Assembly: GCA_903955385.1 (NCBI GenBank)
Contig: CAJBNH010000010.1
Coordinates: forward strand, 1-52,604
DNA length: 52,604 bases
From: an uncultured Myxococcales bacterium
GTDB lineage: Bacteria; Myxococcota_A; UBA9042
Direction of reading: 5' to 3'
Shown: in pieces, positions 23,497-40,612 of the stretch
Numbering within the stretch: position 1 is the first letter of the stretch
Layout of the letters: each line of letters starts with the position of its first letter
The notes under the pieces: generated by a model
The model's database searches: none
The model's input: only the letters and a program-made list of their open reading frames with translations
What the model was told of the DNA's origin: nothing
Program-made: the position numbers and the translations under genes

Positions 23497-23514
23497 CTGT
23501 GAACCACTTCACAA
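23497..23514 (+). promoter_or_regulatory. Rex operator (ROP)
   Basis: CTGTGAACCACTTCACAA differs at one base from the established Rex consensus TTGTGAANNNNTTCACAA. It is an inverted repeat centred 53 bases before the rex start and about 12 bases after the predicted transcription start, a position where binding should block transcription. Rex of many bacteria binds such sites when NADH is low and lets go when NADH is high. Self-regulation of rex and control of the hyd genes follow from this position. Confidence 0.85.
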
Positions 23515-23558
23515 TGCACACGGCTTCACAGCTTTCTGCTCACAGCCCGGAGGTTCCC

Positions 23559-24188
23559 TTGGTCGCCCACCGCACCATCGAACGCCTGAGCGTGTATCGC
23601 CGAATCGGGACCCTGATGCACGGCAAGGGGACGATGCACGTCTTCTCGCACGAGCTCGCGGCCCGCTCAGGCTCCACCGCTGCCCAAGTCAGGCGCGACC
23701 TGATGCTCGCAGGCATCACCGGCAGTCCGGCCAAGGGCTATCTGGTGTCCGCGTTGATTGCGCGCGTCAACGCCGTCCTGGACCACCCGGAGGGCTTGCA
23801 GGTCGCACTCATCGGCGTCGGCAATCTGGGGCGAGCCTTTCTTGCCTACTTCCTGGGGCGCAAAGCCAACTTGAACATCGTCGCCGCCTTCGACGCCGAC
23901 CCGGCCAAGGTGGGGCGGGTCATTCAGGGTTGCCGGTGCCTGCCCATGCAGGACCTGGTGCCCACTTGCCGCAGCCTTGGCGTGCACGTCGGCCTCGTCA
24001 CGGTTCCGGCCGACCAGGCACAGGCGGTGACCGATGCGCTGCTTGAGGCAGGCGTCCGCGGCATCCTCAACTTCGCGCCGGCCAAGATCCGCGTCCCGGA
24101 AGGCGTGTTCGTCGAGCACGTGGACATCACAGCGCTGGTCGAGAAGGTCGGGTACTTCGCTGCCCGCCAGAACAAGGAGACCCCATGA
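23559..24188 (+). CDS. rex: Redox-sensing transcriptional repressor Rex
   Basis: Best start is TTG 23559, five bases after GGAGG, giving 209 residues, the normal Rex length; an ATG at 23514 would overlap the operator and adds no homologous sequence. Residues about 5-75 are the winged helix (TIERLSVYRRIG, then ARSGSTAAQVRRDLMLAG). The Rossmann domain starts VALIGVGNLGRAFLAYFLG, the GxGxxG nucleotide loop of Rex, followed by AAFDADPAKVGRVIQG and VPADQAQAVTDALLEAGVRGILNFAP. Rex dimers sense the NADH/NAD+ ratio and repress fermentation and respiration genes. Its stop overlaps the start of hydC (ATGA), so rex is the first gene of the hydrogenase operon and very likely regulates it. Confidence 0.94.
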   Translation: MVAHRTIERLSVYRRIGTLMHGKGTMHVFSHELAARSGSTAAQVRRDLMLAGITGSPAKGYLVSALIARVNAVLDHPEGLQVALIGVGNLGRAFLAYFLGRKANLNIVAAFDADPAKVGRVIQGCRCLPMQDLVPTCRSLGVHVGLVTVPADQAQAVTDALLEAGVRGILNFAPAKIRVPEGVFVEHVDITALVEKVGYFAARQNKETP

Positions 24189-24649
24189 GCGCGGTCGAGC
24201 AAGTCGTCGCCCAGTACCCCGGTGCGGCGCGTGACAGCCTGATCCCGATCCTGCAGGCCGTGCAGGAGGTTGACGGCTACCTGTCGCGCGAGGCCGTCAG
24301 CGTCATCGCCCGGCACCTGCAGCTGGCGCCCAGCAAGGTGTACGGCGTCGCGACGTTCTACAACCAGTTCCGCTTCCAGCCGAAAGGCCGCTTCCACGTT
24401 CAGGTCTGTCGGGGCACGGCCTGCCACGTCAAGGGCTCGGCGGCGGTGCTGGAGTCGCTGAAGCGGACGCTGAAGCTGGAGCCGGGTCAGACGGCGAGGG
24501 ATGGGTCGTTCAGCCTCGAGGTCGTGGCGTGCATCGGCGCGTGCGGCTTGGCGCCGGTGCTGAGCGTGAACGGCGAGATCCACGCCGGTGTCGCACCGGA
24601 CAAGGTCAACGGCATCCTGGGCGTGTACCGGAAGCGGGTCGCAGATTAG
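24185..24649 (+). CDS. hydC: NuoE-like [2Fe-2S] subunit of trimeric [FeFe]-hydrogenase
   Basis: This 154-residue protein has start ATG 24185 within the rex stop, after AAGGAG. The helical N-terminus (LIPILQAVQEVDGYLSREAV, then YGVATFYNQFRFQPKGRFHV) precedes a thioredoxin-like ferredoxin fold. Its [2Fe-2S] ligands are visible as CRGTAC (C-x4-C) and CIGAC (C-x3-C), the NuoE pattern. In HydABC enzymes this subunit passes electrons between HydB and the solution-exposed edge of the complex. No membrane subunits of complex I are nearby, which supports hydrogenase over NADH dehydrogenase. It is followed after 13 bases by hydB. Confidence 0.92.
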   Translation: MSAVEQVVAQYPGAARDSLIPILQAVQEVDGYLSREAVSVIARHLQLAPSKVYGVATFYNQFRFQPKGRFHVQVCRGTACHVKGSAAVLESLKRTLKLEPGQTARDGSFSLEVVACIGACGLAPVLSVNGEIHAGVAPDKVNGILGVYRKRVAD

Positions 24650-24662
24650 CGAGGTGGATGGA

Positions 24663-26651
24663 ATGATTCCCGAATGCAAGGATCTGGCGTGTGATGCCTG
24701 CCACCCTGAGGGTGAGCTGCCCTGCCCGCGTCTGGCGGACCACGTGCTCGCGGCAACTCGTGCGGAATCGGCCCCCGACGCCGGAACCGTCGCGCTGCTG
24801 GCGGCCCTGAGACGTGAGAATGTGCTGCGGCCGACCGTGTACGTCGGCACCGGCACGTGCGGCTTGGGTGCGGGCGCCGACAGGACGGTCGCAGCGGCAA
24901 AGGCCTGGCTGACCGAGCACGGCGTCGAGGCCGACCTGGTCGAGGTCGGGTGCATCGGCTACTGCTCGGCAGAGCCCCTGCTGGACGTGCAGCTGCCCGG
25001 TCGTCCGCGCCTGTCGTTTACCCACGTGACGCAGGACAAGGTCGCCGAAGTCCTTGCCGGCACGCTGGCAGGTACGCCGCCCACCCACGACGTGCTGGGG
25101 CAGTTTCGCGCGCCCGCCCACGAGCCTTGGGCCGACCTGCCGTGGATGGACGAGCACCCGTTCTTCGCGCCGCAGATGCGTTGGGTGCTGGCCGGCTGCG
25201 GCAACATGGACCCCAAGCGCATCGAGGAGGCCATCGCCCACGGCGCCTGGCGGTCGATGGCGGCCATGCTGCACCGGCAGACACCGGCAGAGGTCTGCGA
25301 CACGGTCGACCAAGCCGGGCTGCGCGGACGAGGCGGCGGCGGCTTTCGCACCGGCGTGAAGTGGAAGATGGCGTTGGCGGCCGAGGCTGACCGCAAGTAC
25401 CTGATCTGCAACGCGGATGAGGGAGACCCGGGTGCCTTCATGGACCGCGCCGTCATCGAGGGCGACCCGCACCGGCTGCTCGAAGGCATCGCCATCGCGT
25501 CGTACGGCATCGGCGCCTCCAAGGCGTACGTCTACATTCGCGCAGAATACCCGTTGGCGATTCGGCATCTGGAGATCGCCATCGCCCAGGCCAAGACCTA
25601 CGGGCTGCTGGGCCACGACATTCTCGGCAGCGGCTTCAACCTGGACGTGGTGATCAAGAAGGGCGCCGGCGCGTTCGTCTGCGGCGAGGAAACCGCCCTG
25701 ATCCACAGCATCGAGGGCAAGCGCGGCATGCCCCGGCCACGACCGCCCTACCCCACAGAGCGCGGTCTGTTCGGCAAGCCGACGGTCATCAACAACGTCG
25801 AGACACTGGCCAACCTGCCGTCGCTGTTGACGATGGGCTGGCAGGCGTTTGCGGCGGTCGGCACGGCCAACTCCAAGGGCACCAAGGTCTTCGCGCTCTC
25901 CGGCAAGGTCGAGCGCACCGGCTTGGTGGAAGTGGCGATGGGCACCCCGTTGCGCGACATCGTGTTCGGCGTGGGCGGCGGTTGCCCCAACGAAAAGAAG
26001 TTCAAGGCCGTGCAGATCGGCGGCCCGTCCGGCGGCTGCATCCCCGACCAGCACATGGGCATCCTGGTCGACTACGACGAGCTGAAGACCGTAGGCGCGA
26101 TGATGGGTTCGGGCGGCCTGGTGGTGATGGACGAGAACACCTGCATGGTCGACGTGGCCAAGTTCTTCATGGACTTCATCCAGCGCGAGTCGTGCGGCAA
26201 GTGCATCCCGTGCCGCGAGGGCACACGACGGATGCTCGAGACGCTCGAGCGCATCACGCGAGGCCGTCAGGGTGAGACAGGCACCGACGCCCTCGAGCGT
26301 TTTCAAGGCGTGCTGTACCTGGAACGGCTGGGCGGCGTGATCAAGGACACCAGCCTGTGCGGTTTGGGGCAATCGGCGCCGAACCCGGTGCTGTCGACGC
26401 TGCGGTGGTTCAAGGAAGAGTACGAGGAGCACGTGTTCGACCGGCACTGCCGCGCCGGCGCGTGTACGGACTTGCTGACCTTCTCGATCGATCCCGACCT
26501 GTGCAACGGCTGCACCCTGTGCGCCCGCCGCTGCCCATCCGGCGCGATTCTGGGGACCGCCAAGAGCCCCCACTACATCGTCCCCGAAAAGTGCGTGCGC
26601 TGCGGCACCTGCCTGACCGACTGCAGGCGGCACGCGGTGATTGCGGCCTAG
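24663..26651 (+). CDS. hydB: NuoF-like NAD(H)/FMN subunit of trimeric [FeFe]-hydrogenase
   Basis: Start at ATG 24663 after GAGGTGGA gives 662 residues; the frame upstream overlaps hydC. An N-terminal Cys-rich leader (CKDLACDACH) precedes a thioredoxin-like [2Fe-2S] domain with TCGLGAG and VGCIGYCSAEP; the first pair has only one Cys, as in many NuoF-like proteins. Then come the FMN/NADH domain with GRGGGGFRTGVKW and CNADEGDPGAFMDR, KKGAGAFVCGEETALIHS, and a [4Fe-4S] site (ESCGKCIPCREGT plus TSLCGLGQ). The C-terminus has two more [4Fe-4S] motifs (CNGCTLCARRC and CVRCGTCLTDC). This is the HydB plan of electron-bifurcating or NAD-linked hydrogenases: it couples NAD(H), ferredoxin and the hydrogenase subunit. 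Confidence 0.95.
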   Translation: MIPECKDLACDACHPEGELPCPRLADHVLAATRAESAPDAGTVALLAALRRENVLRPTVYVGTGTCGLGAGADRTVAAAKAWLTEHGVEADLVEVGCIGYCSAEPLLDVQLPGRPRLSFTHVTQDKVAEVLAGTLAGTPPTHDVLGQFRAPAHEPWADLPWMDEHPFFAPQMRWVLAGCGNMDPKRIEEAIAHGAWRSMAAMLHRQTPAEVCDTVDQAGLRGRGGGGFRTGVKWKMALAAEADRKYLICNADEGDPGAFMDRAVIEGDPHRLLEGIAIASYGIGASKAYVYIRAEYPLAIRHLEIAIAQAKTYGLLGHDILGSGFNLDVVIKKGAGAFVCGEETALIHSIEGKRGMPRPRPPYPTERGLFGKPTVINNVETLANLPSLLTMGWQAFAAVGTANSKGTKVFALSGKVERTGLVEVAMGTPLRDIVFGVGGGCPNEKKFKAVQIGGPSGGCIPDQHMGILVDYDELKTVGAMMGSGGLVVMDENTCMVDVAKFFMDFIQRESCGKCIPCREGTRRMLETLERITRGRQGETGTDALERFQGVLYLERLGGVIKDTSLCGLGQSAPNPVLSTLRWFKEEYEEHVFDRHCRAGACTDLLTFSIDPDLCNGCTLCARRCPSGAILGTAKSPHYIVPEKCVRCGTCLTDCRRHAVIAA

Positions 26652-26696: not shown

Positions 26697-28418
26697 GTGA
26701 TCCGCATCGAAGCCAACGACAAGGTCATCGAGGGCAAGGACGGCGAGACCTTGCTGACGACACTGCGCAGGGGCGGCATCCACATCCCCACGCTGTGCCA
26801 TCTGGAAGGCCTGCTGCCCAGCGGCGCGTGCCGGATGTGCGTGGTCGAGGTCGAGGGTCAGAACGGCCTCGTCCCCAGCTGCGCCTTTCCCGTGCGCGAC
26901 GGCATGAAGGTCCACACGCACACGCGACGCGCGACACGCGCCCGCAAGACCATCATCGAGCTGCTGCTGGCCAACCACCCCGACGACTGCCTGTACTGTT
27001 CCCGCAACAAGGACTGCCAGCTGCAGGACATGGCGGCCGAGCTGGGCGTGCGGCAGCGGCGATATTCGGGCGGCCGCTGCATCGCGCGCCCGGACATTTC
27101 GAGCCTGTCGGTGGTGCGCGAGCCCGCCAAGTGCATCCTGTGCGGCAAGTGCGTGCGGGTGTGCGAGGAAGTGCAGAGCGTGTCGGCCATCGACTTCATC
27201 GGCCGTGGCTCGCACACCAAGGTCGGCCCTGCGTTCGACACCGGACTGCACGTGTCCAGCTGCGTCGACTGCGGCCAGTGCATCCTCGCCTGCCCTACCG
27301 GCGCACTGTCAGAGCGCAGCAGCTTCAAGAACATCCTGTCCGCCATCGACGACCCCAAGAAGCACGTGCTGGTGCAACACGCGCCGGCCGTATCGGTGAC
27401 GCTGGGCGAGCTGTTCGGCGCCAAGCCGGGCGTGGACGTCGCCGGGCTGATGACGGCGGCACTGCGGCGGCTGGGCTTCGACCGCGTGTTCGACACCAGC
27501 TTCGCGGCCGACCTGACGATCATGGAAGAGGCGAGCGAGCTGGTGCAGCGCATCACGCAGAACCAGCCGCTGCCGATGTTCACGAGTTGCTGCCCGGCGT
27601 GGGTCGACTTCGCCGAGCAGAACTTCGCCGACCTGCTGCCCAACCTGTCTACCTGCAAGAGCCCGCAGCAGATGCTGGGCGCGGTGCTGAAGTCGTGGTA
27701 CGCCAAGCGCGAAGGGATTGACCCCAAAGACATTTTCACCGTAGCGGTCATGCCATGCACGGCCAAGAAGACCGAGGCCCGCACGCACGGCATGGACCAC
27801 GACGGAGTGCCCGACGTCGACGCGGTGCTGACCACTCGCGAGCTGGCGCGCATCATCCGGATGCGCAACATCGATCTGGCGTCGCTGGAGCCCGAAGCCG
27901 CCGACACGCCGTTCGGGGGCCGGTCGACGGCCGGCAAGCTGTTCGGCGCCTCGGGCGGTGTGATGGAAGCCGCGATTCGCACAGCCCATGTCATGGTCAC
28001 CGGCAAGGAGATGGACAACCTGAAGGTTCAGGCGGTGCGCGGGATGCAGGGCGTGAAGGAAGGCCGGGTGAAGATGGGCGATCTCGAGGTCGGCGTCGCC
28101 GTCGTCAGCGGCCTGGCCAACGCCCGCAAGCTGGCCAACGAGGTGCGCGCAGGCCGCAAGGACATCCAGTTCATCGAGGTGATGGCGTGTCCCGGCGGTT
28201 GCATCAACGGCGGCGGGCAGCCCATCGGCGCGGACATCGAGGCGGTCAAGGCGCGCGCCCAAGCGCTGTACCTGATCGACCGCGACGGCGACATCCGCAC
28301 CTCGCACGCCAACCGCGACGTCCAGAGGCTGTACGACGAGTTCCTGGGCAAGCCGCTGGGCCACGAAAGCCATCGGCTGCTGCATACCGAGTTCAAGGCG
28401 AGGAACGCCGGGGAGTAA
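26697..28418 (+). CDS. hydA: Catalytic [FeFe]-hydrogenase subunit
   Basis: This 573-residue protein starts at GTG 26697 after CCAGGAGG. Clusters in order: N-terminal [2Fe-2S] (Cys 34, 45, 48, 62); His-ligated [4Fe-4S] (His 94, Cys 98, 101, 107); two [4Fe-4S] (Cys 146/149/152/156 and 189/192/195/199). The H-cluster domain has all three loops intact: FTSCCPAWV (Cys 298 for proton transfer, 299 ligand), VMPCTAKKTEA (Cys 354) and EVMACPGGCINGGG (Cys 498, 502). The end carries the small-subunit segment (VQRLYDEFLGKPLG, then LLHTEF). It should reduce protons or oxidise H2 in the cytoplasm with HydB and HydC. The maturases HydEFG needed to build the H-cluster are not in the window. Confidence 0.97.
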   Translation: MIRIEANDKVIEGKDGETLLTTLRRGGIHIPTLCHLEGLLPSGACRMCVVEVEGQNGLVPSCAFPVRDGMKVHTHTRRATRARKTIIELLLANHPDDCLYCSRNKDCQLQDMAAELGVRQRRYSGGRCIARPDISSLSVVREPAKCILCGKCVRVCEEVQSVSAIDFIGRGSHTKVGPAFDTGLHVSSCVDCGQCILACPTGALSERSSFKNILSAIDDPKKHVLVQHAPAVSVTLGELFGAKPGVDVAGLMTAALRRLGFDRVFDTSFAADLTIMEEASELVQRITQNQPLPMFTSCCPAWVDFAEQNFADLLPNLSTCKSPQQMLGAVLKSWYAKREGIDPKDIFTVAVMPCTAKKTEARTHGMDHDGVPDVDAVLTTRELARIIRMRNIDLASLEPEAADTPFGGRSTAGKLFGASGGVMEAAIRTAHVMVTGKEMDNLKVQAVRGMQGVKEGRVKMGDLEVGVAVVSGLANARKLANEVRAGRKDIQFIEVMACPGGCINGGGQPIGADIEAVKARAQALYLIDRDGDIRTSHANRDVQRLYDEFLGKPLGHESHRLLHTEFKARNAGE

Positions 28419-28422
28419 GGCC

Positions 28423-30414
28423 GTGCCGATCGTCCCGCTCATCAGAACCCTGCGCGAGCGCTGCCGCGTTTGCTACACCTGCGTGCGCGAGTGCCCGGCC
28501 AAGGCCATCCGCATCTCGGGCGGTCAGGCGCAGGTGATCTACGAGCGCTGCATCGGCTGCGGCAACTGCGTGCGGGTGTGTTCGCAGGGGGCCAAGACCA
28601 TCCTGTCGGACGTGGCGCGGGTCGAGCAGCTGCTGGGGTCGGGCCATCGGGTGGCGGCGCTGGTCGCTCCCAGTTTTCCTGCCGAATTCACCGATGTTGC
28701 CCCAGCTCGCGTCATCGGCATGTTGCGGTCGGCGGGGTTCGAGCTGGTGGCGGAAGTGGCGTTCGGTGCGGACCTGGTGGCCGACCGCTACCGCCAGCTG
28801 CTGGAGACGTCGCGCGGCCGACGGCACATCGCCACGACCTGTCCCGCCGTGGTCGGCTATGTCGAGCGGTACGCGCCCACGCTGGTGCCCTACCTGGCCC
28901 CCATCGTATCGCCCATGATCGCCATGGCCCGGGTGCTGCGGCAGAAGTACGGCGAGGACTTGCAGATCGTGTTTCTGGGTCCCTGCATCGCCAAGCGGGC
29001 TGAGGCGACCGCGTTTGGCGGTGAGGTGGCATCCGTCCTGACGTTTCCGGAGCTGAGGACCCTGCTGCAGAACCGCGGCGTGACCGGCGACAGCGCGACC
29101 GACAGCGAATTCGACCCGCCGCACGCTCGGCTGGGCGGCCTGTTTGCCGTCAGCGGCGGGCTGCTGGAGACGGCGGGCGTGCAGGACGACCTGATCACGG
29201 GTCGCGGCGCAGTGGTGGACGGGCGCAGCGTGTTCGTCGACGCGATCCACGAGTTCGAGGCAGGCGCCATCGACGCGCGACTGCTGGAGATCCTTGCGTG
29301 CAGCGGCTGCATCATGGGCCCGGGGCTGAGCAACCGGGCGCCGCTGTTCAGCCGCAAAAGTCGGGTCAGCGGCTATGTGCGGGAACGGCTGAAGCGCTTC
29401 GACATCACCAAGTGGTTCGAGGACATGGACGCCTTTGCCGACCTGAATCTGGCGCGGTCTTACGAGGAGAACGACCACCGACTGGCAAGCCCATCGCCGG
29501 ACGAGCTGACCGATCTGCTGGCCAAGATGGGCAAGCGCGCCCCGTCGGACGAGCTGAACTGCGGCGCGTGCGGCTATGACACCTGCGTCGAGCACGCCAT
29601 CGCCATCCATCAGGGTCTGGCCGAGAGCGAGATGTGCCTTCCCTACACCATTGACCAGCTGCGGCGGGCGGTGGGCGAGCTGCACGAGTCCAATCAACAG
29701 CTGGCGACGACGCAAGAGGCGCTGCTGCAGGCCGAAAAGCTGGCGAGTCTGGGGCAGCTGGCGGCCGGCATCGCGCACGAGGTCAACAACCCGCTGGGGA
29801 TCGTGTTGATGTACGCGCACTTGCTGCAGGAAGAGTGCGGTCCCGATTCGCCGATGGCCGAGGACCTGACGCTGATTGCAGAGCAGGCGGACCGGTGCAA
29901 GAACATCGTCGCCGGGCTGTTGAACTTTGCGCGGCAACGGCAGGTGCTGCTGCAGCCCGTCGATGTGCGCGACCTGGTCCAGCGCAGCTTGCGCGCCGTT
30001 CCAGCGCCGCAGAACGTGGCGCTGCAGGTCGAGACAAGTGGCGACGACCCTGCGGCCGAGCTGGACCGCGACCAGCTGATTCAGGTGTTGACCAACCTGA
30101 TCCACAACGCCTATGACGCGATGCCGCAGGGCGGGACGCTGACGCTGAAGACGGCGGGGGACATGCAGTCCGTTTGGTTCGTGGTGCAGGACTCGGGCGT
30201 CGGCATTCCCCCTGCCAACATGCCCAGAATCTTCACGCCCTTCTTCACGACCAAGCCCATGAGCCGGGGCACCGGTCTCGGCCTTGCCGTCACCTATGGC
30301 ATCGTCAAGATGCACCGCGGCGACCTCCAAGTGGAGTCGAACGCCGACCCCGCGAAGGGTCCAACGGGCACGACTTTCCGCATCACACTGCCGCGACACG
30401 GCAAGGTGGACTGA
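28423..30414 (+). CDS. hydS: Sensory [FeFe]-hydrogenase fused to histidine kinase (HydS-type)
   Basis: This 663-residue protein starts at GTG 28423, four bases after hydA. Two [4Fe-4S] motifs (Cys 14/17/20/24 and 43/46/49/53) precede a [FeFe]-hydrogenase large-subunit domain (about 60-350) with altered H-cluster loops: ATTCPAVVG (Cys 140, the proton-shuttle Cys replaced by Thr), LGPCIAKRAE (Cys 188) and EILACSGCIMGPG (Cys 293 and 296, one residue closer than in HydA). A further four-Cys FeS domain (CGACGYDTC ... EMC, 380-405), a coiled linker and a histidine kinase follow: IAHEVNNPLG (His 452), LTNLIHNAYDA, DSGVGIPP and GTGLGLAV. Group C/D sensory hydrogenases have such domains. It probably signals H2 or redox state to the regulators encoded next. 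Confidence 0.92.
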   Translation: MPIVPLIRTLRERCRVCYTCVRECPAKAIRISGGQAQVIYERCIGCGNCVRVCSQGAKTILSDVARVEQLLGSGHRVAALVAPSFPAEFTDVAPARVIGMLRSAGFELVAEVAFGADLVADRYRQLLETSRGRRHIATTCPAVVGYVERYAPTLVPYLAPIVSPMIAMARVLRQKYGEDLQIVFLGPCIAKRAEATAFGGEVASVLTFPELRTLLQNRGVTGDSATDSEFDPPHARLGGLFAVSGGLLETAGVQDDLITGRGAVVDGRSVFVDAIHEFEAGAIDARLLEILACSGCIMGPGLSNRAPLFSRKSRVSGYVRERLKRFDITKWFEDMDAFADLNLARSYEENDHRLASPSPDELTDLLAKMGKRAPSDELNCGACGYDTCVEHAIAIHQGLAESEMCLPYTIDQLRRAVGELHESNQQLATTQEALLQAEKLASLGQLAAGIAHEVNNPLGIVLMYAHLLQEECGPDSPMAEDLTLIAEQADRCKNIVAGLLNFARQRQVLLQPVDVRDLVQRSLRAVPAPQNVALQVETSGDDPAAELDRDQLIQVLTNLIHNAYDAMPQGGTLTLKTAGDMQSVWFVVQDSGVGIPPANMPRIFTPFFTTKPMSRGTGLGLAVTYGIVKMHRGDLQVESNADPAKGPTGTTFRITLPRHGKVD

Positions 30415-30415
30415 G

Positions 30416-30838
30416 ATGAACCAGACAAGCCAAGACAAACTCTCCGGAACCGGCTGCACGGTGCTGCTGGTGGACGACGACGAGGACTTCCTGTTCCAGG
30501 CCTCGACCCGGCTGCGTCACGACGGCTACACGGTCCTCGAGGCCCAAGGTCAGGCCGCGGCAGAGGAGCTGCTGCCCACCGCGCAGTTCGACGTCGCCGT
30601 GCTGGACCTGATGATGGAGCACATGGACAGCGGCTTCGTCCTTTGCCACCGCATCAAGCGCAAGCACCCGAAAGTGCCCGTGCTTTTGGTGACGGGGGTG
30701 GTGGGCGAGACCGGGCTCGAGTTCGACGCGTCCACCGCGGAAGAGCGGCGCTGGATTCGGGCCGACGTGCTGTTGGCCAAGCCGGTGCGCTACGAGCAGC
30801 TCAAGGGCGAGATCGAGCGACTGCGGGCCCTGTCCTGA
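30416..30838 (+). CDS. Single-domain response regulator (receiver only)
   Basis: Start ATG 30416 is one base after the kinase stop (TGAGATG), giving 140 residues; the longer in-frame reading overlaps the kinase and has no ribosome site. The receiver fold is complete: VLLVDDDED acidic pocket, phosphoacceptor Asp in AVLDLMMEHM, Thr in LLVTGV, Lys in LLAKPV. No output domain follows, so it must act by phosphate transfer or protein binding, as in CheY or Spo0F. A loop insertion (GETGLEFDASTAEERRWIRA) lies between the Thr and Lys segments. It is the likely first acceptor for the sensory hydrogenase kinase. Confidence 0.88.
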   Translation: MNQTSQDKLSGTGCTVLLVDDDEDFLFQASTRLRHDGYTVLEAQGQAAAEELLPTAQFDVAVLDLMMEHMDSGFVLCHRIKRKHPKVPVLLVTGVVGETGLEFDASTAEERRWIRADVLLAKPVRYEQLKGEIERLRALS

Positions 30839-30861: not shown

Positions 30862-31974
30862 ATGGACACGCTCCGCATCCTCATCGTCGACGACGAACCC
30901 GGCATCCGCACCGCCATCGCTCGCGCGCTGCGCCACTACCGCGTCACGCTTCCGGAATTCCACGCCGACTTCGCCGTCACCCTCGACCAGGCGGCCACCG
31001 GTGAAGAAGCGCTGGAGAAGATCGCCGCCGACCCGCCCGACTTGATGCTGCTGGACCACAAGCTGCCCGGCATGTCAGGCGTGGACGTGCTGGAGCGGTT
31101 GGCCGAGCAGAAGGCGCAGGTCCTGACGCTGATGATCACGGCTTATGCGTCGCTGGAGACGGCGGTCAACGCAACCCGGCGCGGGGCCTACAACTTTCTG
31201 GCCAAGCCGTTCACCCCAGACGAGCTGAAGGCCGCCATCTTCGAGGCGGTCAAGCACCTTGCCGTCCAGCGGCAGGCCCGGCGGCTGGCCGACGAGCGAC
31301 GGCGTGTGCGGTTCGAGTTCCTGTCGGTCGTTGCCCACGAGCTGAAGGCGCCCACCTCTGCCATCGAGGGCTATCTGCAAATGCTGCAGGACCGCACGCT
31401 GGGCAACGACCTGTCGGCCTATGGCATGGTGTTGGACCGCGCGCTGTTCCGGCTGGACTCGATGCGCAAGCTGTTGGCCGACTTGCTGGACCTGACACGC
31501 ATCGAGTCGGGGCAGAAGCGACGCGAGCTGCAAGAGGTCGACGTGCAGGACGTAGCGCGTGGCGCAGTCGAGCTGGCGGCGGAGCAAGGTGCGCCACGAG
31601 GCATCACGGTCACGCTGACGGACGGCGAACCCGTGTCGATGCAGGCCGACAGGGGAGAGATCGAGCTGATCCTCGCCAACCTGCTGTCGAATGCCCTGAA
31701 GTACAACCGCGACGGCGGCCGCATCGACGTCACGATACGACGGCTGGTGGACAAGGTGGAGCTGCGCGTCGCCGACACCGGCATCGGCTTGTCGGACGAG
31801 GACAAGGCCAGACTGTTCGGCGAGTTCGTGCGGGTGAAGAACGAGCAGACCCGACACATCGAGGGCAGCGGTCTGGGGCTGTCGATCGTGCGCAAGCTGG
31901 CCAACCTGTACGGCGGTGAGACCGGGGTTCAGAGTGAGTTGGGCGTCGGCAGCTGCTTTTGGGTGCGGGTCTGA
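30862..31974 (+). CDS. Hybrid receiver-histidine kinase
   Basis: Start at ATG 30862 after AAGGACGG gives 370 residues; it lies 23 bases after the receiver-only gene. Residues 1-130 are a receiver (ILIVDDEPG, LMLLDHKLPG with the acceptor Asp, ITAYAS, LAKPFTPDE). A short helix joins it to a histidine kinase: VVAHELKAPTSAIEGYL (phosphorylated His), LANLLSNALKYN, DTGIGLSDEDK and GSGLGLSIVRKL. There is no sensor, membrane helix or DNA-binding domain. The receiver-first order suggests that phosphorylation of the receiver controls the kinase. As last gene of the operon it may pass the signal to a partner encoded elsewhere. The stop is followed two bases later by a dispersed 39-base repeat. Confidence 0.88.
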   Translation: MDTLRILIVDDEPGIRTAIARALRHYRVTLPEFHADFAVTLDQAATGEEALEKIAADPPDLMLLDHKLPGMSGVDVLERLAEQKAQVLTLMITAYASLETAVNATRRGAYNFLAKPFTPDELKAAIFEAVKHLAVQRQARRLADERRRVRFEFLSVVAHELKAPTSAIEGYLQMLQDRTLGNDLSAYGMVLDRALFRLDSMRKLLADLLDLTRIESGQKRRELQEVDVQDVARGAVELAAEQGAPRGITVTLTDGEPVSMQADRGEIELILANLLSNALKYNRDGGRIDVTIRRLVDKVELRVADTGIGLSDEDKARLFGEFVRVKNEQTRHIEGSGLGLSIVRKLANLYGGETGVQSELGVGSCFWVRV

Positions 31975-35922: not shown

Positions 35923-37509
35923 ATGGCGAATGCGAGTTGGTCCATTTCCGTCTGGCTGCGTCTTTTGACCGTCGCTGCCTTGGCCGCGCTGACCGTCGCG
36001 TGCAGCGACAGCGGCTCTGGGGGCGAGACCATCACGCTGCCCGACACGACCCAGTCGGACCTGACGGGTCAGGACCTGACCGCGGACACCGTGCAGCCCG
36101 ACACCGTCGCGGACGCCCAGACCGACGACACCGCGGTGCCGGATGTGACCCCCGACGTGGAACCGGATGTGGAACCCGATGTTGCGGGCGAAGTGACCCC
36201 GGACGTGCAGCCGGACGTGGTCCCCGACGTCGAACCCGAAGTGGTCGAAGACATCGTCGACGTGCCGGATACGGTCGAAGTGGTCGAGGACGTGCAACCC
36301 GACATCCAGCCCGACGTGCAGCCCGACGTGCAGCCCGACATCGTCGACACGGCCGACACCCAAGAGCCGACGTGGGGCACGTTTACGCCGTCTGGCTGCA
36401 CCAAATTCGTCAACACCAACGGCGACGGCACCGTCAACCCCTTCATCAGCCCCGCGCGCGACGGCCAGTTCTACGTCAGCTACGTGGCCAAGGGCGGCAA
36501 CCTGATGCTCGCTTGGGAGGACCCGACGACGTGCAAGACGGTCGTTGCGCCGATGCAGGTCAACAAGACCGCGGGCGCCGTGTACTACTGGGGCGCCGTG
36601 GCGGTCGTCTCGGACAAGGCCGGCAACTTCTATGCCGTCTGGGAGGGCGCGTTCGGCACCGACGCCGAGATCTCGTTCGCGTGGTCCAAGACGGGCAAGG
36701 ACTTCAGCGCGCCCATCGAGCTCGTGTCGACCAGCACCAACGGCCAGGACCCCGCCCTGTGGGTGCCCGCGTCGGGCGAAGTGCATGCGGCCTGGCGCGG
36801 CCACCACGCGTTCGAGCCGTGGTACGACCCCTACTACGCGTTCAACGGCAGCGTGTTCAGCGGCGGTAGCTTCTCGCCGGGCGTGCTGGTCCACGCCGAC
36901 GCCGAGCAGGACGACCAGGTGGCGATCGGCGGCGACTCGATGGGCAACCTGTATCTGGCCTGGCAGACCTTCGACGGCGACATCTTCATCGCCCGCTCGA
37001 CCGACGAGGGCAAGACGTGGAGCGCCCCCAAGAAGGTCAACGACGAGACCGGCAAGGCCAACGTCGGCAAGGCCAGCTTCATGGTCATCACCCCCGACGA
37101 CCGCGTGGTGCTGATGTGGTCCGACTCGCGCACCGACAGCGAGGGCGATGTGTACGCCGACTCGAGCGCCGACGGCCTGACCTGGGGCGTGGACGTCATG
37201 GTCAACGACAACACCGCGCGGTACCAAGAGGATCCGTCGATGGTGGTGGCGACGGCGACGGCCTGCAAGGGCGCGATTTACGCGGTCTGGCAGGACATGC
37301 GCAACAAGTCGAGCTACGACATCTACGCCGCCCGGTCGACCGACGGCGGCAAGACGTGGTCCGCGAACGAGGCCATCGCCAAGGACGTGGAAGGCGACGA
37401 GATGAACCCTGCCATCGCCGTTGACCAGTCCTGCAAGGTCGGCGTGGCGTGGCGCGATGCGACGAAGAACGACTCGTTCGACATCGGCTCGACCTACTTC
37501 ACCTGGTGA
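35923..37509 (+). CDS. Asp-box (BNR/sialidase-like) lipoprotein with acidic PDV linker
   Basis: This 528-residue protein starts at ATG 35923 after GCGAGG. Lipobox TVAC (Cys 27). Residues about 40-148 are an acidic low-complexity stalk of D-x-x-PDV steps. The remainder is a six-blade-like beta-propeller with Asp-box motifs: RSTDEGKTWSAP (about 365), SSADGLTWGVDV (about 420) and RSTDGGKTWSAN (about 470), plus partial ones such as WSKTGKDFSAP. Asp-box proteins include sialidases and other glycosidases, but the Arg triad of sialidases is not obvious, so I call only the fold. Probably a surface protein on a stalk. Three large lipoproteins follow one another here on the same strand. Confidence 0.82.
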   Translation: MANASWSISVWLRLLTVAALAALTVACSDSGSGGETITLPDTTQSDLTGQDLTADTVQPDTVADAQTDDTAVPDVTPDVEPDVEPDVAGEVTPDVQPDVVPDVEPEVVEDIVDVPDTVEVVEDVQPDIQPDVQPDVQPDIVDTADTQEPTWGTFTPSGCTKFVNTNGDGTVNPFISPARDGQFYVSYVAKGGNLMLAWEDPTTCKTVVAPMQVNKTAGAVYYWGAVAVVSDKAGNFYAVWEGAFGTDAEISFAWSKTGKDFSAPIELVSTSTNGQDPALWVPASGEVHAAWRGHHAFEPWYDPYYAFNGSVFSGGSFSPGVLVHADAEQDDQVAIGGDSMGNLYLAWQTFDGDIFIARSTDEGKTWSAPKKVNDETGKANVGKASFMVITPDDRVVLMWSDSRTDSEGDVYADSSADGLTWGVDVMVNDNTARYQEDPSMVVATATACKGAIYAVWQDMRNKSSYDIYAARSTDGGKTWSANEAIAKDVEGDEMNPAIAVDQSCKVGVAWRDATKNDSFDIGSTYFTW

Positions 37510-37702
37510 CGCGCCCGGCCAACGCCGACCATGCCCCCCGTCAGGCCCGGGGAATTCGCCCCGCCGTCGCCCTCGGCCCATCGACACAAACGGGCCAGTG
37601 TGGCAGCGTCTCTCGCGGCCTGAGAACCTGACGGTTTCTCTCTTGGCCACCCACTCTTCCCTGCGCCGCCCCTCGATCGGCAGGGGCACCGGCGAGGTCC
37701 TG

Positions 37703-40612
37703 ATGCGACTCCAATTCCTTGTGCCTGCCCTGTTTGTCCTGCCGCTCGCGCTGACTGCCGTCGGCTGCGGAGACACCAAGGCGAGCGACGCTGTCACCGG
37801 TTGTCCGTCCGGCGAGCAGGACCTCGACGGCGACGGCGCCTGCCTTCCCGACTGTGCCACCGCCAACCTGACCTGCCAGCATGGCGCCTGCTCTGACGTC
37901 AGCGGCCGCGCCCTGTGCACTTGCGACTCGGGCTACGCGGGGACCACGTGCTCCGTCTGCGCCCCCACGTGGCAGGACAAGGACGGCAACGGCACCTGCA
38001 AGCCCGGCTGCGAGATTGCCAAGGTCTCGTGCACGCACGGCTTCTGCTCGGACAAGACCGGCACCGCCCAGTGCGCGTGCAGCGAAGGCTACGCAGGCAC
38101 GATCTGCGACCGCTGCGACAGCGGCTGGCAGGACGCGGACGGCGACGGCATTTGTAAGCGCGCGTGCAGCACGGCGGGGTTGCAGTGCGGTCAGGGCTAC
38201 TGCTCATCCGAGACCGGCGTGGTCCACTGCAACTGCGCCGCCGGCTACACTGGCGATTCGTGTGAGAAGTGCGCGACCGGCTTCCAGGACAAGAACCTCG
38301 ACGGCATCTGCAAGCCCACGTGCGCCAAGGCCAAGTTGAAGTGCACCACCAACGGCGCCTGCTCCGACGAGTCCGGTACCGCCCAGTGCGAGTGCAAGAA
38401 CGGCTACGCCGGAGTCACGTGCACCAGCTGCGCGACCGGCTACCAGGACAAGAACAGCGACGGCGTCTGCGAGCCCGCGTGCGTGGTGGGCCAGTGCGGT
38501 CATGGCTCGTGTATGGACACGACGGGGGAAGCTGTCTGCTCATGCGCCAAGGGCTATCAGGGCGCGAAGTGCCTGGTCTGCGCGGCCGGCTACCAGGACA
38601 AGGATGGCAACGGCGAGTGTCTACCCGACTGCTCGCAGGCCAACCTCGGGTGCCTGAACGGCGCGTGCAGCGACCTGTCCGGCACGGCGAAGTGCGCGTG
38701 CGACCTGGGGTATGCCGGCAACGCCTGCATGGGCTGCGCGGTCGGCTATCAGGACAAGGACGGCAACGGCGTGTGCCAGCCCGGTTGCACCGAGACGACG
38801 TGCACCAAGGGCTTGTGCTCGGACGCAAGCGGCATCGTGGTCTGCACCTGCCCCGTCGGCTACACCGGCCCCAACTGCTCGACTTGCGCCGTCGGCTATC
38901 AGGACGTGGACGGCGACGGCGTATGCAACGCCGGATGCACCCTTGCGAATCTGGGGTGCAAGCACGGCGCGTGCAGTGAGCAATCCGGCACGGCCGTCTG
39001 CCAGTGCCCCACGGAGTACGTCGGCGCCAAGTGCGAGACCTGTGCCCCCGGAAACCAGGACGCGGACGGCAACGGCACGTGCGCGCCCACCTGCGACACG
39101 GCCAAGCTCGCCTGCGTCAAGGGTGCCTGCTCCGACGCGTCGGGCAAGGCAACGTGCGAGTGCGACGAAGGCTACGGCGGCGACCTTTGCGAGACATGTG
39201 CCCAAGGCTGGCAGGACAACGACCAGAACGGCGCGTGCCTGCCCGCGTGCTCGACCGCCGGCCTGGACTGCGGCCACGGTCAGTGCGCAGACACCACCGG
39301 CAAGGCCGCTTGCGGGTGCGAGACGGGCTACGAGGGCAATACCTGCAAGGCCTGCGTCGCCGGCTACCAGGATCTGGACGAGGACGGCACCTGCTCGCCC
39401 ACCTGCGACACCGCCAACCTCGCCTGCGTCTTCGGCAAGTGCTCGGATTCCGATGGCACCGCCGACTGCTTCTGCGACGACACCCACGCGGGCACGCTGT
39501 GCGCCGAGTGCAAGGCCGGACTGCAGGACAAGGACTCGAACGGCTCGTGCACGGCAGACTGCAGCACCGCAAACCTGACTTGCAACAAGGGCATGTGCGC
39601 GGACACGACCGGCACTGCGCTTTGCGTGTGCGACGCCGGCTACAAGGGCGAGACGTGCACCGCGTGCAACACCGGCTGGCAGGACAACGACGACGACGGC
39701 ATCTGCGAGTTCGACTGCGCATCCGCGGCCTTGGACTGCGGCGAGGGCGCCTGCTCGGACGCCACCGGCCAGGCGCTGTGCGTGTGCAACCAGGGCTACC
39801 AGGACAACGACAAGAACGGCAAGTGCACGGCGGGATGCGGCGTGGCCCAGCTCAGCTGCCCCGAGGGCGAGACGTGCAACGACGCGTCGGGCGTCGCCGG
39901 TTGCCACAACCCGTGGCCGAACACCTGCGCCACCGTCAAGGGCGTGACCCCCAACCCGCAAGACGCCGAATACACGCTGTTCTTTGCCAACGACCCCACG
40001 CGTCCCTGGCAGGCCTGGTGCGACGACGTCGCGGGAACACCGACGGAGTACCTGTCCGTCGCGCCTGAGAGCAACTTCAGCACCTGCGAAGGCGGCGGCG
40101 GTTATCCTGCCGGCAAGGTGGTGACGACGTGGAGTCGCGTGCGCATCGACCCCGTGACGCTGGTCGTGACGGTGTCCGACTACGCCTTTGCCACCTCGAC
40201 CGGCGCCATCGCCGCCACCCCGCCCATCGCCAAGGTGCCGTACGCGTCGGCCTGCAACTGCACGTTGGACAAGGGCGCGGCCGCGCGCATCGATCTGTCC
40301 GGCACGCCGTTCGAGCTGGCCGACACGTTCTGCTCCATCGGCTTCCTCGCCTTTGGCGGCATCACCCCGGCCAACGGCCAAGGCCAGACGCTAGACCTGA
40401 CGGGTGGCGGCTTCTGCGGCACGATGGGCCCCTGCACCCAGGGCGTGACGCCGAACCTGCAGCTCTCGATCCTGCCGTGCCCCAACCACACGCAAGGCGC
40501 GGACTGCGGCACCTGCACCCCCGACGCCACGGCGTGCGGCGGAGCGTGCGTGGTCTGCCCGGACCAGTTGCCCTTGGACCCGCAGACTTGCGAGTGCCAG
40601 TACTCCACCTGA
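37703..40612 (+). CDS. EGF-repeat lipoprotein with a GON-like C-terminal domain
   Basis: Start at ATG 37703 after GGCGAGG gives 969 residues; the open frame begins at 37421 but overlaps the previous gene. Lipobox AVGC (Cys 22). Twelve complete copies of a unit of about 48 residues follow: an EGF-like module ending CxxGYxGxxC, then CxxGYQDxDxNGxCxPxC, in which the D-x-D-x-N-G part looks calcium-binding. A thirteenth, incomplete copy ends the array. Residues about 742-916 resemble the GON domain of animal ADAMTS proteins: PWQAWCDDVAGTPTEYLSV, NFSTCEGGG, VPYASACNCTLDKGAAARID and LSGTPFELAD. A last Cys-rich tail ends the protein. It is likely a rigid surface adhesin. The GON assignment is by pattern, not by search. 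Confidence 0.83.
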   Translation: MRLQFLVPALFVLPLALTAVGCGDTKASDAVTGCPSGEQDLDGDGACLPDCATANLTCQHGACSDVSGRALCTCDSGYAGTTCSVCAPTWQDKDGNGTCKPGCEIAKVSCTHGFCSDKTGTAQCACSEGYAGTICDRCDSGWQDADGDGICKRACSTAGLQCGQGYCSSETGVVHCNCAAGYTGDSCEKCATGFQDKNLDGICKPTCAKAKLKCTTNGACSDESGTAQCECKNGYAGVTCTSCATGYQDKNSDGVCEPACVVGQCGHGSCMDTTGEAVCSCAKGYQGAKCLVCAAGYQDKDGNGECLPDCSQANLGCLNGACSDLSGTAKCACDLGYAGNACMGCAVGYQDKDGNGVCQPGCTETTCTKGLCSDASGIVVCTCPVGYTGPNCSTCAVGYQDVDGDGVCNAGCTLANLGCKHGACSEQSGTAVCQCPTEYVGAKCETCAPGNQDADGNGTCAPTCDTAKLACVKGACSDASGKATCECDEGYGGDLCETCAQGWQDNDQNGACLPACSTAGLDCGHGQCADTTGKAACGCETGYEGNTCKACVAGYQDLDEDGTCSPTCDTANLACVFGKCSDSDGTADCFCDDTHAGTLCAECKAGLQDKDSNGSCTADCSTANLTCNKGMCADTTGTALCVCDAGYKGETCTACNTGWQDNDDDGICEFDCASAALDCGEGACSDATGQALCVCNQGYQDNDKNGKCTAGCGVAQLSCPEGETCNDASGVAGCHNPWPNTCATVKGVTPNPQDAEYTLFFANDPTRPWQAWCDDVAGTPTEYLSVAPESNFSTCEGGGGYPAGKVVTTWSRVRIDPVTLVVTVSDYAFATSTGAIAATPPIAKVPYASACNCTLDKGAAARIDLSGTPFELADTFCSIGFLAFGGITPANGQGQTLDLTGGGFCGTMGPCTQGVTPNLQLSILPCPNHTQGADCGTCTPDATACGGACVVCPDQLPLDPQTCECQYST

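Follow-up and report, generated by a model that had tools for sequence, protein, structure and literature searches.

The open reading frame at positions 28423-30414 (+) of the window, the 52,604-nucleotide stretch of DNA analysed here, encodes a 663-amino-acid fusion of a sensory [FeFe] hydrogenase with a histidine kinase, designated HydS, whose shortened third H-cluster loop is a trait inherited by a whole branch of kinase-fused sensors and not a device peculiar to this protein. HydS itself is probably a cytoplasmic histidine kinase that senses H2, a member of the kinase-fused branch of group C (BfuT, sub-type V), acting by the mechanism proposed below.

The hydS frame is unbroken, has a GTG start and begins 4 bases past the hydA stop. 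Pfam matches establish the domain order Fer4-H-FeS-HisKA-HATPase, with two N-terminal [4Fe-4S] motifs (residues 11-57, 28453-28593; Fer4_10, Fer4), the H-domain (residues 76-300, 28648-29322; PF02906, E 1.6e-40), a C-terminal FeS domain with Cys380, 383, 388 and 405 in a Cx2Cx4Cx16C arrangement (residues 378-407, 29554-29643; PF04060), a HisKA dimerisation and phospho-acceptor domain carrying His452 within HEVNNPLG (residues 443-506, 29749-29940; PF00512) and a HATPase_c kinase domain (residues 548-658, 30064-30396; PF02518), all on the + strand. In an alignment of 56 sequences, the cysteines of the C-terminal FeS domain and His452 are invariant and the N, G1, F and G2 box residues of HATPase_c are conserved. 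No PAS domain was detected in HydS by Pfam at E 0.001, its place being taken by HisKA and HATPase_c. The initial annotation had called the protein a sensor, a function predicted here from this architecture, from homology and from gene context.

The loops were assigned by aligning HydS with the catalytic HydA encoded in the same operon. In loop 1 (28837-28842, +), HydS ATTCPAV aligns with HydA TSCCPAW, which places Thr139 on the proton-shuttle Cys (the Cys299 position of CpI) and Cys140 on the ligand. In loop 2 (28978-28995, +), GPCIAK with ligand Cys188 and Lys191 stands opposite MPCTAK, and in loop 3 (29293-29310, +) ACS-GC stands opposite ACPGGC, so that Leu291 and Ala292 are followed by Cys293-Ser-Gly-Cys296, a CxxxC motif minus one residue. 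Gly186 and Leu291 occupy the Met353 and Met497 positions and thus replace the two methionines framing the [2Fe] site. As for the proton path of group A, Ala159 takes the place of Ser319, and the stretch equivalent to Glu279/Glu282 is deleted or replaced, with approximate gap placement. These alignments bear out the initial annotation in its reading of Thr for the proton-shuttle Cys, of a retained PCIAK, of CSGC with one residue less than the CPGGC of the neighbouring HydA and of all four ligand cysteines (140, 188, 293 and 296) as present and correctly numbered.

Several features define the class to which HydS belongs. PF02906 together with four aligned and conserved Cys ligands places it in the [FeFe] hydrogenase superfamily. 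With ATTCP, GPC and CxxC instead of TSCCP, MPC and CxxxC, it lacks the motifs of group A catalytic enzymes, and it scores 96.8 bits with the NCBIfam group A model, far below the cut-off of 405.95. According to the definitions of group C and group D (M2e) in PMC8163306, HydS exhibits the group C architecture of two N-terminal [4Fe-4S] motifs and a C-terminal Cx2Cx4Cx16C domain flanking the H-domain, as well as the group C replacements of the Cys299, Met353 and Met497 equivalents (Thr139, Gly186 and Leu291). It is distinct from M2f, in which PAS follows the FeS domain, and from group D, where Met353 is replaced by a residue with a hydroxyl group and no output domain is fused, since HydS has Gly186 there and a fused kinase. 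A C-terminal histidine kinase fusion and a gene located downstream of that for subunit A are features of the sub-type V BfuT.

Relatives were gathered from the phylum of the window, from named genomes (the best 80 of 586 confirmed relatives) and from further genomes, and after duplicate removal 104 kinase-fused H-domain proteins, including HydS, were compared by alignment column. This set covers at least 15 phyla, as given in the sequence records, and is biased to the window's own branch because the window protein served as query. Loop 3 is CxxC in 103 of the 104 proteins. Cys188, Cys293 and Cys296 are present in all 104 and Cys140 in 103, the remaining sequence being incomplete there; taken with Lys191 of loop 2, these ligands are conserved in 102-104 of the 104. 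Conservation in the relatives, along with the alignment to HydA, supports the retention of an H-cluster site predicted in the initial annotation. Likewise, Gly stands at the Met353 position in 102/104 proteins and Leu at the Met497 position in 100/104. Position 139 is more variable (T36, D29, S18, P9, A8, F2, C1 and one gap), with Thr as the commonest residue. Judged by these counts over 104 proteins, Thr139 together with a short loop 3 is therefore a common state of kinase-fused proteins, and the loop combination that the initial annotation took as special to HydS is the ordinary state of a branch found in at least 15 phyla.

Outside this branch the longer spacing prevails. CxxxC was found in 14/14 complete sensors with other C-terminal parts (PAS, PAS-like or sigma54 activator, assigned by Pfam on a sample, with partly weak PAS matches) and CxxC in 0/14, and CxxxC is also present in three clostridial PAS-type references, the HydS proteins of Ruminococcus albus, Monoglobus and Acetoanaerobium, as well as in 150 of the 151 group A/B-like proteins having both cysteines. 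The short loop thus marks the kinase branch and not HydS alone, since nearly all kinase-fused proteins have CxxC and PAS-fused sensors CxxxC, in line with the suggestion of the initial annotation that it may mark a subgroup, and loop-3 spacing can serve as a quick sequence marker of kinase-fused members. The related question of whether CSGC spacing is ordinary for group C/D receives a divided answer: it is ordinary for the kinase-fused branch but not throughout group C, because PAS-type, sigma54-fused and the three clostridial sensors carry CxxxC, and a norm for the entire group is ruled out.

When 64 H-domains were placed in a quick maximum-likelihood tree, only 3 changes of loop spacing were required, and HydS clusters with its class-mates with 98% SH-aLRT. 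Most simply, the loop became shorter once, where the kinase branch begins, and CxxxC was regained in the sigma54-fused proteins and in one kinase-fused member, although the tree does not fix the direction. This sole kinase-fused protein with CxxxC in loop 3 (CCDGGC), encoded at L079:6045-8075 (+), offers a natural comparison for the effect of loop-3 shortening. An extra Cys292 directly before the loop-3 ligand (CCxGC) occurs in 66 of the 104 kinase-fused proteins. In these, ligation in a CxxxC manner by Cys292 is imaginable, and this residue is possibly an alternative ligand or a thiol near the cluster; HydS and 37 others lack Cys292, so that the ligand shared by all is Cys293. In the kinase-fused branch, the last loop, which leads from a [4Fe-4S] ligand to the [2Fe]-bridging Cys, has one residue less than its counterpart in the catalytic and PAS-type proteins checked. 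That the H-cluster of the branch is thereby held in a setting of its own, adapted to signalling, spread over at least 15 phyla and apparently unexamined spectroscopically, is a tentative proposal to which we assign a rather low probability.

Bacteroidales sensors exhibit additional variation. In 29/104 proteins, Asp is naturally found at the Cys299 position (SSDCP), as in kinase-fused HydS of Bacteroidales (e.g. L112:5983-7971, L147 and L113). In group A, Asp at this position is the only exchange avoiding severe loss of activity, and among sensory enzymes the position is Ala in ~43%, Cys in 17%, and Pro and Ser in ~10% each (PMC10055695). Since the Asp exchange keeps group A activity, the Asp-bearing Bacteroidales sensors may turn over faster. 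Bacteroidales also carry a second, divergently placed sensor gene, whose product has the short loop-3 spacing too and nests in the kinase branch of the tree. Eight of these second sensors (L159, L146, L161, L141, L128, L140, L137 and L131), encoded by minus-strand open reading frames upstream of hydC, have Asp, Asn or His in place of the first loop-3 ligand Cys, while other copies retain it; because of this loss, a normal [4Fe-4S] part of the H-cluster is unlikely in the eight.

The gene neighbourhood of hydS, all on the + strand, comprises a hydrogenase operon and a signalling cassette. At the operon head lies a probable Rex operator, CTGTGAACCACTTCACAA (23497-23514), with one mismatch to TTGTGAAN4TTCACAA; it is the window's only match at up to 3 mismatches, with 0.46 expected at that threshold, and comparable sites lie upstream of rex or hydC in many relatives. 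It is followed by rex (23514-24188), encoding a redox-sensing transcriptional repressor that is over the cut-off of the NCBIfam Rex PRK05472 subfamily; ATG 23514 is the proposed start, the frame being open further upstream and the conserved part beginning near 23562. Next are hydC (24185-24649), encoding a NuoE-like thioredoxin-like [2Fe-2S] subunit (PF01257; nuoE_fam over cut-off), hydB (24663-26651), encoding a NuoF-like FMN/NADH and Fe-S subunit (PF01512, PF10589, Fer4), and hydA (26697-28418), encoding the catalytic [FeFe] hydrogenase subunit, which carries the motifs TSCCP, MPCTAK and ACPGGC and is over the cut-off of the group A6 model NF040763, that of the NADH-dependent type. HydS probably regulates this group A6-type hydrogenase, whose operon is probably under Rex control too. 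A sigma-54 promoter was considered for the operon and rejected, as sites were fewer than expected by chance and none was at the operon head. Downstream of hydS are genes for a single-domain response regulator (30416-30838; PF00072 only) and for a protein with receiver, HisKA and HATPase_c parts and no sensor or DNA-binding domain (30862-31974; Pfam); Pfam revealed no DNA-binding output domain in either of the two. Farther along the window, positions 37421-40612 hold a 1063-amino-acid open reading frame whose many Cys-rich units, arranged in tandem, look similar to EGF-like repeats and contain a DxDGDGxC element.

This arrangement is conserved: among 72 kinase-fused loci with enough flanking sequence, the sensor gene is adjoined by hydA in 67, by the receiver gene in 66, by the receiver-kinase gene in 63 and by all three in 59, and rex is present at 31 of the 54 loci with wide flanks. 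In a more distant branch (L071-L074, L077 and L078) the downstream kinase is less similar. Two distant kinase-fused sensors are accompanied by receiver and receiver-kinase away from hydABC (L255:7971-12103 and L256:5434-9399), which suggests that the three signalling genes are inherited together. The next gene at these two loci encodes a protein of 734-752 amino acids that by eye resembles the NfnB/ferredoxin-NADP reductase type.

On another contig of the same genome (C146, L201:5505-12662), HydG, HydF and HydE, all over their cut-offs, are encoded in a row with a second NuoF/HydA pair, and no sensor gene was seen beside them. Of the genomes sampled from the same family (f1), only one (G006) besides that of the window (G000) has an H-domain protein, a different HydA, and the nearest relatives of the operon belong to another family of that class, f5; the rarity of H-domains in f1 and the position of these relatives suggest transfer of the operon or repeated loss. 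A different kind of sensor is encoded at L207:451-2727 (-), L209:1336-3792 (+) and L211:436-2751 (-), where an H-domain and an FeS domain like that of HydS are joined to a sigma54-activator AAA domain, and in L207 to a Fis-type HTH as well. In these proteins loop 2 has SSC or STC, the loop-1 ligand is preceded by His and loop 3 is CxxxC. They are encoded away from hydABC and, by their domain content, apparently combine H2 sensor and transcription activator in one protein; no description of a sigma54-fused [FeFe] sensor was found in the literature searched.

An AlphaFold2 model of HydS, built with 56 sequences, has a mean pLDDT of 89, with H-domain blocks mostly >90, and a pTM of 0.69, a value that leaves the placement of domains uncertain. 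Among solved structures, those of [FeFe] hydrogenases come nearest in fold, and for the kinase part that of ZraS. A continuous helix is predicted for residues 406-472 (29638-29838, +), starting just past Cys405 and running through His452, with pLDDT of about 52-71 at residues 421-460 and higher values outside. This helix may plausibly connect the FeS domain physically with the kinase, and since Cys405, the last FeS ligand, is located at its start, the state of the FeS domain could set kinase activity.

In the following scheme, H2 binding and slow turnover are inferred, as are the response of the kinase, phosphotransfer and the final output. The H-domain most likely binds a complete H-cluster through Cys140, 188, 293 and 296, with assembly presumably by the HydE, HydF and HydG seen in the genome, and this cluster would be reduced by H2. 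Turnover is plausibly slow by analogy with TmHydS and TamHydS (PMC10055695, PMC8163306), the probable reason being that the group A proton path is dismantled. The change of state would be relayed to the C-terminal FeS domain as a conformational change, not necessarily as electrons, and phosphate would pass from the kinase to the lone receiver and/or the adjoining receiver-kinase, as their conserved neighbourhood suggests. Because these two lack a DNA-binding domain, the final step would occur elsewhere or by protein-protein contact. Rex would add NADH/NAD+ control through the site at the operon head, and HydS and Rex together would adjust the HydABC hydrogenase to the redox state and to H2.

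Other explanations were weighed against an H2-sensing kinase. HydS could be an iron-sulfur redox (or O2/CO) sensor kinase, with an H-domain holding [4Fe-4S] only or an H-cluster whose H2 chemistry is no signal, so that the kinase tracks the general redox state. The several [4Fe-4S] sites besides the H-cluster, the link of the operon to Rex and the persistence of some Bacteroidales paralogues without the first loop-3 ligand are consistent with such a role; we nevertheless regard it as unlikely, since kinase-fused proteins keep the four H-cluster ligands and Lys191 and HydEFG are present, neither of which a plain Fe-S sensor needs, and the sensor gene nearly always adjoins hydA.

Less probable still is that HydS works as a slow hydrogenase, docking on HydABC or Fd and contributing to catalysis, with a kinase part that regulates assembly or is vestigial. 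Intact ligands and the measurable activity of TmHydS and TamHydS (PMC10055695, PMC8163306) would fit it, but the proton-path residues are replaced, the kinase motifs are intact and the receiver and receiver-kinase co-occur with such sensors even away from hydABC. That the short loop arose by sequencing error or early decay of hydS alone might be entertained for a draft assembly of 201 contigs, yet the frame is open and the near-universal conservation of CxxC across many phyla and assemblies refutes it, leaving it a negligible probability. H2 sensing by a kinase-fused protein is the preferred reading.

Compared with known systems, TmHydS and R. albus HydS share with the window protein the two N-terminal [4Fe-4S] motifs, the H-domain, the C-terminal Cx2Cx4Cx16C domain, the GPC loop 2 and a gene near hydrogenase operons, but carry PAS instead of a kinase. 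TmHydS further has Ala at the Cys299 and Ser at the Met497 position (PMC10055695). TamHydS (group D, M2e) resembles HydS in its H-domain and C-terminal FeS domain, loss of Cys299, Leu at the Met497 position and location near hydABC (PMC8163306, PMC11803613), but is without fused kinase or PAS and has Ser at the Met353 position, where HydS has Gly. Both TmHydS and TamHydS have lost the Cys299, Met353 and Met497 equivalents and combine low activity with reduced states that are stabilised (PMC8163306, PMC10055695, PMC10407848, PMC11803613). These two characterised models of how [FeFe] sensors signal H2 lack a kinase of their own; in the kinase-fused branch sensor and kinase share one chain, and H2 dependence could thus be read directly as autophosphorylation. 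R. albus HydS differs in having CxxxC in loop 3, Cys at the Cys299 position and a SpoIIE phosphatase gene next door. In group 2b regulatory [NiFe] hydrogenases, the metal site and fold differ from those of [FeFe] enzymes, and the components are separate polypeptides and not one chain. In principle HydS would work like these enzymes, in which a hydrogenase module feeds a histidine kinase (histidine kinase-linked in HydDB Table 1). Closest is BfuT, for which the consulted part of a 2024 study (PMC11406978) describes a kinase-fused group C3 protein encoded downstream of bfuA in sub-type V BfuABC clusters, next to bifurcating hydrogenase genes, in Hydrogenedentota, Calditrichota and Bacteroidota, proposes hydrogen sensing and files HATPase_c proteins also under C1; in that part of its text, loop-3 spacing, the receiver pair and the Rex site find no mention. 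Members of these three phyla are among the relatives compared here. Kinase-fused group C3 sensors beside bifurcating hydrogenases are thus already known from that part of the study, and HydS, which shares with BfuT the fusion of H-domain and histidine kinase and the location downstream of a bifurcating-type subunit A but comes from another phylum (the Myxococcota group), is a further member.
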